From an uncultured Sutterella sp. (GTDB lineage: Bacteria > Pseudomonadota > Gammaproteobacteria > Burkholderiales > Burkholderiaceae_F), in the NCBI GenBank assembly GCA_934249275.1, contig CAKQKT010000010.1, positions 1 through 33,970 of the forward strand: DNA of 33,970 bases, written 5' to 3'. The position numbers were made by a program, and so were the translations under genes. Positions 20,424 through 32,315 of the stretch are shown here, one piece after another (the stretch's first letter is position 1; each line of letters opens with the position of its first letter). The notes beneath the pieces were generated by a model. That model saw only the letters and a list, made by a program, of their open reading frames with translations, did not search any database and had not been told where the DNA came from.

Positions 20424-21389
20424 TTACTTCACCACGAAGCGGCAGATGCCGTTTCGGGTGGACTTGTCAAGCTCGAAGGATCGGCCGTCGACCGTGATCG
20501 TCATGGCGGAGGCATTGCCCACCGTGACGCGAGCGCCGACGGGAACGTTCAGAACCTCGCTGCCGCCCGCAGCCATCTCCTTGGCGAAGAGGTTGCGGCC
20601 GTTGGGCAGAAGAATCTGCACCCAGCAGGCGCCCGAAGTCGAAAGAGCAACGCGGCGCTCGGATACAACGGCAGCCTGTTCCTGTGCGCGAGCCTTTTCA
20701 GCCCGGGCCTTCTCGGCTGCGGCCTTTTCAGCAGCGGCCTTTTCCGCGGCCGCCTTTTGAGCGGCGGCCTTCTCGGAAGCAGCCTTTTCAGCCGCCTCCT
20801 TTTCCGCCGCTGTCTTGTCAGCGGCAGTCTTTTCGGCCTCGGCCTTCTCTTCGGCGGCCTTGGCTTCGGCCGTCATTTCAGGCGCGGCCTCGGGGGCCTG
20901 AGCTTTCTGAACGTCAGCTGCCGGAGCGGGCAGTTCACCCCCGGGCTCGGCGGCGCTCATGCTCGACCAGACATACCAGCCGCCGGCGCATGCAAGCACC
21001 ACGGCGACGGCAATGGCGGCAGCCTTGATGCCGGTGCGGGAGCCGGAAGCGCTGACGACGGTTTCCGTGTTGGGATCGTGATCGGGAATAACGCCGACGC
21101 TTGCAGCGCCGTAGCGGGCGCTGTAGTCGGCCACGAGCGGATCGGAATCGAGTCCAAGAACCTGGGCGACGCCGCGAATGAAGGCGCGCACGTAGACCGG
21201 TTCGGGAAGCTCGTCAAGTGTTTCGTCCTCAAGAGCGCGAACCTGCTGAACCGACAGGCGGGAGCGCGCGGCCATGTCGCCGATGGAAATGCCCTGAGCT
21301 TCGCGGGCGCGCTTGAGTGCGGCGCCGAAGCCTTCGGCGGGTGCCGAATGCAGGATCGGCTCGTTCATGTCAGACGTTTCTTGGGCCAT
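20424..21389 (-). CDS. rodZ: RodZ-like cytoskeletal/HTH membrane protein
   Basis: RodZ links MreB filaments to the cell-wall elongation machinery. The 321-residue protein has the cytoplasmic HTH_25 domain (about 20-95, LKRAREAQGISIGDMA), one membrane segment (about 121-141), a long Ala/Lys/Glu-rich coiled stretch (about 172-238, repeated EKAAA units) and the C-terminal RodZ/DUF4115 beta domain (about 244-321, ACWVQILLPNGR). AAGGAAG precedes the ATG at 21389. The Ala/Lys repeats are expanded, probably a flexible periplasmic spacer. Confidence 0.88.
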   Translation of the reverse strand: MAQETSDMNEPILHSAPAEGFGAALKRAREAQGISIGDMAARSRLSVQQVRALEDETLDELPEPVYVRAFIRGVAQVLGLDSDPLVADYSARYGAASVGVIPDHDPNTETVVSASGSRTGIKAAAIAVAVVLACAGGWYVWSSMSAAEPGGELPAPAADVQKAQAPEAAPEMTAEAKAAEEKAEAEKTAADKTAAEKEAAEKAASEKAAAQKAAAEKAAAEKAAAEKARAEKARAQEQAAVVSERRVALSTSGACWVQILLPNGRNLFAKEMAAGGSEVLNVPVGARVTVGNASAMTITVDGRSFELDKSTRNGICRFVVK

Positions 21390-28639: not shown

Positions 28640-29920
28640 CTACAGATAGTGTCCGGAAAAGAGCCTCTCCTCGGGGAACTTGAGCATGAACGTCGAACCC
28701 TCGCCGAGCTTCGAGTGAATGATCAGCTCGCCGCCCGCTCGGCGCATGACGTGCTTGACGATGGCCAGTCCGAGCCCCGTTCCGCCCGTATCTCTTGAGC
28801 GGCCCTTGTCGACTCGGTAGAAGCGCTCGGTAATGCGGGGAATGTCTTCGGGCGGGATTCCGATGCCGTTGTCGGACACCGTCAGAACGGCGCCGGTTCC
28901 CACGCGCTTCCATACGATCTGGATTCGTCCGCCGCGCGGCGTGTAGCGCACGGCATTCGTGATGAGATTGATGACGGCGCTGCGAATCTCCTCGGGATAG
29001 CCAAGCAGGGAAATCCTCTCGTGCTTCACTTCGAACTTGTGCTGCATCTTCGAATAGGCCATGCCTTCGCGCACGGCATTGTCGACGAGTGCGGGCATGT
29101 TGATGAGCTCGGGCTCGGCGGTGCCGCGCTCATCCCGGTTCTCGAGCTTCGAGAGCATCAGCAGGTCGTCGGTAAGGCTCTTCATGCGGGCGGTCTGCTC
29201 GCGCATCAGGGCGAGATGGCGCTTTCTCAGCTCGATCGGAACATCCATGTCCGCAAGATCGAGAAAGCCCGCAATGACGGTGAGAGGCGTGCGAAGCTCG
29301 TGAGAGACATTGGCCACGAAGTCGCGGCGCATGTCGTCGACGCGGCGGCGTTCGGTGACGTCATGCGAGACGATGATCGTATGACGATCGTCGGGCGCCA
29401 CGACGGCAACGTCAAGTAGCACGGAGCCGCCCGAAACTTCAAGTGAAAAATGGTGGGAGAAGTCGCGCGAGTGCAGCCACGCCGCAAATGCGGGCTGTGA
29501 TGCCGAAATCATGTCCGTGAAGATGCGGCCGGCATCCTCAGGCGTGACGTCCATGTGCACGGCAGCCATGGTGTTCACCCACTCGACGACGCCGTTCTCG
29601 CCCTTGAGAATGACGACGCCCTCGGGTAGAAGCTCAAGCGTCTGGCGATATCGCGCATCGCGGGCCTCGAGCCTCGCCTGCATGGAGCGCTCCTCGTCCA
29701 CGATGAGCTTTCCGGCATAAACGGCCAGCAGGGCGAAGACGGCAACACCCATGCAGAAGAAGAGCGCGGCGGTGTCGCCGGCAACGCTCAGCCAGAGAAC
29801 GGCCGAGATGAGCGCGACGAGGATAAGGCCGCCGACAATCAGAATGCCGAGATGCTGCGTCCGTCGTCCTCTGGGCGACAAGGGTTCCGGCATGGAAATT
29901 GCTTTTTCAAGCCTGTGCAT
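28640..29920 (-). CDS. phoR: Phosphate-regulon sensor histidine kinase PhoR
   Basis: PhoR senses phosphate limitation through the Pst system and PhoU, and phosphorylates PhoB. The 426-residue protein has two adjacent membrane segments (about 24-46 and 50-70), a PAS domain (about 90-190), the HisKA motif SHELRTP (phosphorylated His at 207) and the ATPase boxes NLITNAVRYTP, DNGIGIP and GTGLGLAIVK. The ATG at 29920 has GAGG upstream and is preferred over one nine codons later. It was presumably read from the phoB promoter; now a transposon of about 1.6 kb lies between phoB and phoR. Confidence 0.94.
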   Translation of the reverse strand: MHRLEKAISMPEPLSPRGRRTQHLGILIVGGLILVALISAVLWLSVAGDTAALFFCMGVAVFALLAVYAGKLIVDEERSMQARLEARDARYRQTLELLPEGVVILKGENGVVEWVNTMAAVHMDVTPEDAGRIFTDMISASQPAFAAWLHSRDFSHHFSLEVSGGSVLLDVAVVAPDDRHTIIVSHDVTERRRVDDMRRDFVANVSHELRTPLTVIAGFLDLADMDVPIELRKRHLALMREQTARMKSLTDDLLMLSKLENRDERGTAEPELINMPALVDNAVREGMAYSKMQHKFEVKHERISLLGYPEEIRSAVINLITNAVRYTPRGGRIQIVWKRVGTGAVLTVSDNGIGIPPEDIPRITERFYRVDKGRSRDTGGTGLGLAIVKHVMRRAGGELIIHSKLGEGSTFMLKFPEERLFSGHYL

Positions 29921-29964
29921 TTGCGTAACCTCAATCCGATGAGCGTTCTATCCGGTCCGCCTCA

Positions 29965-30110
29965 TTGAAGCTCCCCCGTTAAAAACGGAGGATTCACTAT
30001 GACACTCTCAAGGCTTTTTCAGGGGACAAAGCCGCCTGAACGTCACCCATTGAACAAAGTGTTTGCGACAGACCTCTTTCCCGTTCCTCCTTGCTTGCGC
30101 AATTAGGCTT
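29965..30110 (-). ncRNA. Predicted omega RNA (TnpB guide RNA) scaffold
   Basis: In IS605-type elements the guide RNA of TnpB comes from the 3' end of tnpB and the right end, with the guide just outside the element. Here the end hairpin lies at about 29972-29990 and the guide would start at 29964 on the minus strand (TGAGGCGGACCGGATA). The inner 5' edge (30110) is only a guess; the call rests on family knowledge and the right-end structure. Confidence 0.4.
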
Positions 30111-31514
30111 CGTGAGTCTCGAAGAACCTTGCGGCTCTCCTTGATCGCTACGAGGTTGTTGACGACACAGACCGCTGTCGCGCAACAGTGCTTCCGCAGT
30201 CGTCCACTTCTGCAAGAGAAGGGCTCGGTCGTGTCCATTTTTAGTTGCATGACATGCGAGGAATGCACTCATGACATCTCGTTGCACGAGCGTGTCGGTG
30301 TCTCCCCAGCGATGCCACCTTTCCTTCAACGGCTTCTTTCGGTACGAATCCGTTTCCGGGTCGTACTGCGACATCTTCAGCTTGTATGCGTTGAGTTCAA
30401 TGACCTCGCAGCCGGCGCTTTCAGCCTTGCGCTTGAGGTGTGCAACGAACTCGCCCATACCAGTCCGATTGGTCGATCTTCCGAAACTGCGCTGATAGGA
30501 TCGGTAACTGTTTTTCTCTATCTTGATCGTGCCGCCGATTTGGAGCAGATCGTTCACCAGCTTGCCGTGGTCGCGCTTTCGGGTCGCTGCCAAACGCCTG
30601 TGGTGTTCGGCAAGCTTCGCCAAAAGCTTGCGTCCGCGATTGCCGGTGATCCATTTGGAGGAACCTTTTTTGACGGTTCCGTCCGGATTGTAGTTGTCGG
30701 GATTGTTCGCCCTTCTGGATCGGTCGATCCTGCGCTGAAGCAGTCGAATCTTCGATTCCTGCATATCAACGTTGGGAGCCACTTCGACAATGGCCGCATG
30801 GTGCTCATGAAAGTACGCAATGCGGCTCGGACCCGGGTCGATGCCGACCACTTCGCATTTAGGTGCATAGACCTTGCGAACGGGTGGAAGCCCCTCGACA
30901 ACGAGCTGAACAAACCAGCGTTTTATGCCGTTGAGCGTTCGACGCACTATGCGGCAATATTTCACGCGACGATCCGAGGCAAGCGCCTCATTCATGTAGT
31001 TCGTGTCTGGCTTCATGTACTTCATGTCGTGCTTGCGCCAGACAACGGCTTTCTGCTCAGGCTTGTACATGATTTCGCGATTGTCTGTACCTTCAATGGA
31101 GTTAAGTCCGCGCTTGAAGGACTTGAATCGCGGCTTGCCGCCGTTCTGAAACATATAGCGCTTCAAAGCTCTCCAGACGGTTTTGCCGATGTTTTGCGCC
31201 TCATGAGAGCCAATGTCGTTTCGACCGCTGGCCTTGCGATGATCGTTGGCAATAGTTACCAAGCCGAATTCATTCAAGCCGAAAGCATTGTGAACCGCAG
31301 TAAAGGCCTTGGTGCGGGCTCTGCCTTTCGGCATGTCTTGTGCTTCCCGCCACTCCTTCGTTTCACGCATGCGCTGAAGACGCCCGAGAGCCGTCCCGAG
31401 CGTCGCGTTGTACAGCATGCGGCCGAACTCGAATGCTTTTTCGAGAAAACGATTCTGCTGATCGTTTACACGAAGCGTGAGTTCGACGATGTAGGAAGAA
31501 GTAGTAGATCGCAT
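29997..31514 (-). CDS. tnpB: TnpB-family RNA-guided nuclease/transposase-associated protein lacking the zinc ribbon
   Basis: The 505-residue protein belongs to the long IS1341-like TnpB branch. The N-terminal half holds the RNA/DNA-binding region (ELTLRVNDQQ at 11-20, NGGKPRFKSFKRG at 124-136). The RuvC nuclease residues are all present: D226 in GIDPGP, E333 in KIEKNSY and D413 in QRDVMSAF. The zinc-ribbon place between them (382-405, from SQYDPETDSY to WHRWGD) has no cysteine at all, whereas relatives carry two CxxC pairs. A long C-terminal tail follows (about 421-505). The ATG at 31514 has a weak ribosome site. It should make an RNA-guided DNA nuclease that keeps the element at its site. 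Confidence 0.85.
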   Translation of the reverse strand: MRSTTSSYIVELTLRVNDQQNRFLEKAFEFGRMLYNATLGTALGRLQRMRETKEWREAQDMPKGRARTKAFTAVHNAFGLNEFGLVTIANDHRKASGRNDIGSHEAQNIGKTVWRALKRYMFQNGGKPRFKSFKRGLNSIEGTDNREIMYKPEQKAVVWRKHDMKYMKPDTNYMNEALASDRRVKYCRIVRRTLNGIKRWFVQLVVEGLPPVRKVYAPKCEVVGIDPGPSRIAYFHEHHAAIVEVAPNVDMQESKIRLLQRRIDRSRRANNPDNYNPDGTVKKGSSKWITGNRGRKLLAKLAEHHRRLAATRKRDHGKLVNDLLQIGGTIKIEKNSYRSYQRSFGRSTNRTGMGEFVAHLKRKAESAGCEVIELNAYKLKMSQYDPETDSYRKKPLKERWHRWGDTDTLVQRDVMSAFLACHATKNGHDRALLLQKWTTAEALLRDSGLCRQQPRSDQGEPQGSSRLTKPNCASKEERERGLSQTLCSMGDVQAALSPEKALRVS

Positions 31515-31545
31515 ATGGCTATGTTACTTCACGTTCCCAAAATGG

Positions 31546-31588
31546 GTACGCCTCGACCTCTCTTTGAAAAGAGAGGTATGCGGCGTAC
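31546..31588. repeat. Nested palindromes at the left end of the TnpB element
   Basis: Outer arms GTACGCC (31546-31552) and GGCGTAC (31582-31588) enclose ACCTCTCTTT-GA-AAAGAGAGGT (31556-31577), a 10-bp stem. They form one long hairpin between phoB's end and tnpB. This resembles a left-end recognition structure for a Y1 transposase; it has no T tract, so it is not a typical terminator. Confidence 0.75.
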
Positions 31589-31592
31589 TGTT

Positions 31593-32315
31593 TCAATCAA
31601 GAGGACGGCATCGATAGCCGACCCCGCGAACGGTTTCGATGAGGTCTTCAGCGGCCGTGCCGGCGAGCGCCTTGCGAAGGCGCAACATGTGCACGTCCAC
31701 CGTGCGCTCGTCGACGAACGCGTTGCCCCAGACGCCGTCCAAGAGCTGCCCGCGCGTAAAGACGCGGCCCGGCCGGGAGGCGAACGTCTGCAGAAGACGA
31801 AACTCCTTGACGCTGAGCTTCAGAGGCACGCCGGCCGCGGTCGCCTCGAATCGGGTCTCGTTCATCACGAGCGGACCGCAGGTCACAATCATCTCCTCGC
31901 CGTCCTTGACGGGCGGCGCGGCGTCGGGACGCACATGACCTTCGGCGCTTGCACGGCGAAGAACGGCTCGAATGCGGGCCGTCAACTCTCTGGGCATGAA
32001 CGGCTTGACGACATAGTCGTCCGCACCCGCATCAAGACCTTCAACACGATCCGCCTCGTCGCCACGCGCCGTAATCATCACGACGGGAATCGATGCGCTG
32101 GCTGCGTCGGCTCGAATCTCGCGCAGAAAACTGAAGCCCGAACCGTCCGGGAGCATCACGTCAAGAAGAATGAGATCAAAGCCGCCCGATCGAAGCGCGG
32201 AACGCGCCTCGGCCAGATCGGCAGCCTTGACCGTCTGATGCCCGTCCGTCTCGCAGATGAAGGCGAGGAGTTCGCGAATAGCGGTTTCGTCGTCGACGAT
32301 GAGAAGCTTGGCCAT
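31593..32315 (-). CDS. phoB: Phosphate-regulon response regulator PhoB
   Basis: PhoB is an OmpR-type activator that binds Pho boxes when phosphorylated by PhoR. The 240-residue protein has the receiver domain with D52 (LILLDVMLPDG) and the Lys in DDYVVKPF near 103, then a winged-helix domain (about 140-235, with TVDVHMLRLRKAL and VRGVGYRC). The ATG at 32315 follows AAGGGG; upstream starts would run into phoU. The last codon is GAT, and the TGA stop (31593-31595) is the first three bases of the inserted element. The empty site would give the same stop. Confidence 0.95.
   Translation of the reverse strand: MAKLLIVDDETAIRELLAFICETDGHQTVKAADLAEARSALRSGGFDLILLDVMLPDGSGFSFLREIRADAASASIPVVMITARGDEADRVEGLDAGADDYVVKPFMPRELTARIRAVLRRASAEGHVRPDAAPPVKDGEEMIVTCGPLVMNETRFEATAAGVPLKLSVKEFRLLQTFASRPGRVFTRGQLLDGVWGNAFVDERTVDVHMLRLRKALAGTAAEDLIETVRGVGYRCRPLD

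Follow-up and report, generated by a model that had tools for sequence, protein, structure and literature searches.

The closest described parallel to the locus studied here is ISDra2 of Deinococcus radiodurans (IS200/IS605 family), which has a TTGAT 5' of its left end and inserts 3' of that motif without target duplication (according to excerpts of PMC2806898 and PMC8612924), and whose guide RNA takes its last bases from the right flank (excerpts of PMC8612924). Insertions that leave a gene with a stop codon also have a precedent: TnRErm46 of Rhodococcus equi targets CTAG, and as the stop codon lies within the target, some target genes retain a stop after insertion (excerpts of PMC6794481). 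Here we analyse a TnpB-only element of the IS200/IS605 type which lies exactly at the stop codon of phoB in an uncultured gut bacterium, Sutterella sp. (contig CAKQKT010000010.1; the whole 33,970-nucleotide (nt) stretch analysed is henceforth referred to as the window).

The phoB element resembles ISDra2 in its TTGAT, in its mode of insertion (as judged from a sister copy; see below), in its TnpB fold and in the expected source of its guide. It differs in that it has no tnpA, and its TnpB of 505 amino acids (aa) is about 18% identical over the structural alignment and, in an alignment inspected by eye, has no cysteines at what we take to be the usual place of the TnpB zinc ribbon. It differs from TnRErm46 in the origin of the stop: there the CTAG target is present as direct repeats and the repeated target supplies the stop (as far as the excerpts of PMC6794481 go), whereas at phoB the stop comes from the first base of the element. 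Stop-preserving insertion is therefore already known, and the phoB case is a neat junction rather than a new system. Among open-licence publications searched by title we found none on a TnpB element at a phoB stop, or on one keeping the stop of its target by its own first base. What the locus offers is a single-base view of a TnpB element inside a central regulatory operon whose upstream protein is intact, and a testable example of a stop codon retained through a base change. The junction involves the following features:

31593..32315, minus strand: phoB, 240 aa, intact, with response regulator domains
31596..31600, minus strand: TTGAT, target or transposon-associated motif and also the last phoB codons (cTT GAT); the same or a near motif precedes related copies
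31593..31595, minus strand: phoB stop codon TGA, which is also bases 1-3 of the element (base 1 is 31595, a T)
29965..31595, minus strand: TnpB-only IS200/IS605-type element, 1,631 base pairs; left end placed by motif and homology, right end by TTCAA as in the sister copy
28640..29920, minus strand: phoR, 426 aa, intact; listed ATG at 29920

Read directly, phoB ends CTT GAT TGA, and the TGA doubles as stop codon and element start. On the minus strand the left junction is ...GATGCCGTCCTC TTGAT/TGAAACAGTACGCC... and the right junction is ...GGGGGAGCTTCAA/TGAGGCGGACCGG... (slashes mark element boundaries throughout). The right flank, which reads TGAGGCGGACC..., also starts with TGA (29962-29964), with 41 nt between this TGA and the listed phoR ATG (29920). 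An earlier description of the window, made by a model from the letters alone (the sequence-only reading), had already placed a TnpB element precisely between the last phoB codon and the stop, with PhoB unchanged, and had pointed out the TTGAT and the TGA at both junctions; all of this holds. It had further held that the boundary is ambiguous by three bases, which is true for this sequence taken alone, and that the element rebuilds the stop, to which we return below.

The boundary could be settled with the help of a sister copy in S. seckii (L151, 4431-6062), which is 94.8% identical to the phoB element at the nucleotide level and directly follows the stop codon of a gene for a metal-transporting ATPase (named by eye from its sequence). 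Its junctions read ...GGGATTGATTGAT/AGAAAC...CTTCAA/TCCCTTTGACG, and the corresponding empty site was found in another Sutterella genome (G003; ATPase 98% identical) as ...GGGATTGATTGATCCGGTTTGACG. When the two were compared, the left flank was 99% identical over 300 nt, and the right flank resumed after four mostly unlike bases at 89% over 73 nt. This comparison indicates that the sister inserted 3' of TTGAT without target duplication and ends in TTCAA. The ambiguity at phoB is resolved because sister and empty site together show the order TTGAT, element, flank with nothing duplicated; we infer that the phoB copy made no duplication either. Since the sister inserted precisely 3' of TTGAT, the ancestral end of phoB was very probably CTTGAT/TGAGGCGG. 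The sister thus has ends identical in kind and also sits at the stop codon of a gene (GAT TGA T/), but there the stop precedes the junction and is untouched, and base 1 is A.

We then compared base 1 across copies. Among 43 further junctions from this subfamily and related ones (38 + 5, placed by eye; contig-cut, rearranged or unrecognised left ends such as L010, L012, L024, L028, L032, L074, L082, L142, L162 and L163 were excluded) it was A in 39, C in two, T in one and G in one. The T of the window is the sole difference from the sister within the first 17 bases. With A at this position the phoB frame would run on as AGA AAC AGT... and end 23 residues later. As judged from these copies, the element family brings no stop with it, and it is the T in this copy that turns AGA into TGA; the claim of a rebuilt stop is hence correct for this copy and does not extend to the family.

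In our best explanation, which as a whole we hold to be about 70% probable, the TnpB-only element would have been moved in trans by a Y1 transposase and inserted 3' of TTGAT, between the GAT and the stop TGA of phoB, without target duplication. The displaced stop would then open the right flank and, with it, the presumed TnpB guide. Had a typical copy starting with A landed here, AGA would have replaced the stop and PhoB would be 23 residues longer; the present copy, with T at base 1, gives TGA and PhoB of normal length, and the T may have been favoured for giving this stop. By analogy with ISDra2, an active TnpB would then cut any CTTGAT/TGAGGCGG allele lacking the element, which would keep the element where it is. 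In our reading, the T is a stop-retaining change that was either selected once the element was in place or already present in the copy that inserted. We take this view because the family base is mostly A, A would extend PhoB, and PhoB relatives end alike (the three closest that we inspected end in PLD, PLD and PTD).

Several points weigh against this explanation. T occurs at base 1 once elsewhere (L136), where no open frame of at least 60 codons runs into the junction, so T can arise without a stop-keeping reason; base 1 is also C in two G028 copies and G in one G023 copy (L138). That A was ancestral at the phoB locus is deduced from relatives, and the comparison set included neither a conspecific genome nor an empty phoB site with this spacer. 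PhoB length varies among more distant relatives (e.g., P0144, with 261 aa and a different end), so that 23 added residues may or may not be harmful. Finally, a TTGATTGAT/AGAAAC junction that lost 4 nt would likewise give the sequence seen here.

The T could owe its presence to selection for the stop, to carry-over from the empty allele or to neutral variation. If the donor copy already had T as a neutral variant, PhoB was never disturbed and the stop reflects luck and the survival of a harmless insertion. The T in L136 and the G in L138, neither with a role in a stop, agree with this, but the nearest sister has A and T was seen elsewhere in only 1 of 43 junctions; we consider this account possible but doubtful. 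Carry-over is an improbable route, in which the stop-giving T would be a host base copied in during TnpB-driven repair of the empty CTTGATTGAGGC from the occupied CTTGATAGAAAC: a broken end trimmed to ...TTGATTGA would anneal to ...TTGATAGA despite one mismatch, and its extension would give the observed CTTGATTGAAAC. Were this true, TnpB homing would itself restore the stop removed by insertion, and the altered base 1 might hamper excision, freezing the element at phoB. A check for such co-conversion gave no support, as base 1 of L136 and of L138 is unlike their right flanks.

The deletion route starts from an insertion behind an intact stop (CTTGATTGAT/), the kind of site that the S. seckii copy occupies, followed by loss of 4 nt at the left end, so that the stop was never displaced. 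The phoB copy, however, keeps the sister's exact 7-nt spacing from motif to hairpin with one substitution, and its right flank starts with TGA, as a displaced stop predicts. Both would be coincidences under a deletion, which makes this route very unlikely.

We also examined the locus in relatives. PhoR is 85% identical to that of S. wadsworthensis and 54% to that of S. seckii, and by these identities the source of the window appears to be Sutterella or close kin. The 99% cluster of PhoB sequences that corresponds to this species, P0124, has 11 members. Of 12 Sutterella genomes searched, 11 had a readable phoB-phoR junction (G009 showed no clear PhoR), and no element lay at any of these. In the nearest relative, S. 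wadsworthensis, phoB ends CTTGAC TGACC and a different spacer follows; the exact empty sequence TTGATTGAGGCGG was absent from the 187 loci examined and from the window. The base-by-base match to relatives that the sequence-only reading had proposed as a check was thus obtained for the position of the PhoB stop and not for the spacer, i.e., relatives appear to support the former and not the exact empty junction. Its other check, whether copies end at different bases, came out in its favour, as copies with locatable ends agree.

The remaining parts of the element, and the guide expected from its flank, are as follows:

31546..31588, minus strand: left-end imperfect hairpin, GTACGCC...GGCGTAC with an inner stem of CCTCTCTT and AAGAGAGG (13-sequence alignment)
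29997..31514, minus strand: tnpB, 505 aa, presumed RuvC residues D226, E333 and D413
29973..29991, minus strand: right-end hairpin of CCTCCGTT and AACGGGGG, end of the presumed omega RNA scaffold (9-sequence covariation)
29965..29972, minus strand: right terminus AGCTTCAA
29949..29964, minus strand: presumed 16-nt guide TGAGGCGGACCGGATA from the phoR-side flank, starting with the displaced phoB stop (deduced from the guide RNA (reRNA) anatomy of ISDra2; excerpts of PMC8612924)

Subterminal imperfect hairpins are present at both ends, as expected of an IS200/IS605-type TnpB element. In the 18 junctions of the subfamily, including the window (positions judged by eye, leaving out copies whose left end was not recognisable), the motif 5' of the left end was TTGAT or TTGAC in 15, ATGAY in two and GTGAT in one. 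The left-end hairpin covaries, with compensatory double changes in 11 of 14 pairs across 13 of the 18 left ends (L155, whose left end is the same as that of L154, and L159, L087, L144 and L145 were omitted from the fold). At the right end (9 of 11 ends; L147, with the same stem as L146, and L074, aligned in another register, were omitted from the pair count), 98.6% of cells were paired and the covariation score was 0.368, compared with a shuffled mean of 0.142; the three pairs with double changes were matched in 68 of 500 shuffles, and the five further pair types in 267 of 500. The folded 196-nt right-end RNA was more stable than its shuffles (z -2.8). The TTCAA terminus was found in the window and in 10 related copies with the same hairpin; the search pattern itself required TTCAA, and seven of the 10 ends had first been seen without that requirement. 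A plus-strand match in L141 was taken as chance and excluded from this count. No right end was recovered for two G008 copies (other DNA instead) or L019 (contig end), and those of the S. wadsworthensis copies were not located within the 300 nt examined. Between 29880 and 32400 there was no promoter-like site, and the three terminator-like sites (shuffle mean 3.2) did not include the right end. A live element would depend on parts such as the hairpins, the TTCAA end and the stable right-end RNA.

The reading frame of tnpB occupies nearly the whole element on its coding strand, and the other listed open reading frames (ORFs) overlap it. The protein has the RuvC D-E-D residues of a TnpB by alignment and fold, with a profile match under the curated cut-off; it had no match in Pfam, nor in a single-sequence PDB search. 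The ratio of nonsynonymous to synonymous substitution rates (dN/dS) of 0.21, together with fold and D/E/D residues, makes TnpB look intact. The listed ORFs of the element include no Y1 transposase TnpA, which sets it apart from an autonomous IS200/IS605 element and presumably makes IS1341-like the fitting label; Y1 transposase genes were present in 10 of the 12 Sutterella genomes. TldR-like proteins are nuclease-dead TnpB repressors that have lost the RuvC catalytic residues; this description does not fit the protein here, as D226, E333 and D413 are present. The position of tnpB between phoB and phoR, on the same strand as both, might suggest that TnpB has been domesticated to regulate phoBR and is not the nuclease of a mobile element. 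We regard this as extremely improbable: catalytic residues and ends with covarying hairpins are kept, a near-identical copy lies at another place in another species, and none of the 11 relatives read has the element at phoB-phoR.

The features that bear on a TnpB role in binding a right-end RNA and cutting motif-flanked DNA are anatomical, namely the hairpin, the guide position and the fold. If the ISDra2 pattern applies, the right flank, here TGAGGCGGACCGGATA (29964-29949), supplies the final bases of the guide RNA. A TTGAT adjoining TGAGGCGGACCGGATA is absent from the window and would exist in the empty allele. An active TnpB would cut alleles that lost the element, which would favour retention; TnpB has been reported as a gene drive of IS elements in plasmids (excerpts of PMC11870625). 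With regard to spread, TnpB is 94% identical at the amino-acid level to that of the S. seckii copy and at best 82% to those of the S. wadsworthensis copies. The contig of the S. seckii copy is 8,286 bases long, and its ATPase gene shares 98% identity with the one in another Sutterella genome. The simplest reading is that the element was transferred between Sutterella species, because its order of identities is the reverse of that of PhoR. Among 399 sampled genomes of the order, five had matches at 1e-60, the sole new one being G099 (42-46%). In viral contigs, TnpB found two distant relatives (36-38%), and the left-end sequence gave 36 matches, none directly after the motif and none with a TnpB (tblastn), which we took as chance rather than as copies of the element.

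We do not claim an enrichment of insertions at stop codons, as the ORFs are few and lack annotation and the window owes its selection to this very feature. With a minimum ORF length of 200 codons, a stop lay near 3 of 18 junctions with the window and 2 of 17 without it, compared with 29 of 926 background TTGAY sites; the figures were 6 of 18 and 67 of 926 at 100 codons, and 4 of 18 and 35 of 926 at 150 codons. Right flanks started with TGA at 3 of 11 right ends including the window, perhaps a preference for TTGATTGA targets, but these are too few to tell. L144 (G028) was considered as a second rebuilt stop (TTGAT/CTGA) and rejected: its ORF encodes a YheO-like PAS domain, and the same frame runs on into L147, which makes a truncated gene the most likely reading. 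This regulator gene has probably been cut by a related element; the contig ends of L144 (G028 C35) and L147 (G028 C44), if they belong together, fit in frame as TTGAT/.../TGACCGC. A related TnpB subfamily is present in many copies in G023 (L125-L139, L143), where the motif before the left end is mostly TCAC and the right end is GTTGTTTAG.

Elsewhere in the window, genes for a PhoU-domain protein and an ABC transporter ATPase are found upstream of phoB, and a RodZ-like gene contains twelve overlapping repeat copies at 15-nt spacing (20661-20915). An Rfam search of the window returned nothing but a tRNA, and a tRNA-Leu (CAG) lies at 2425-2511.
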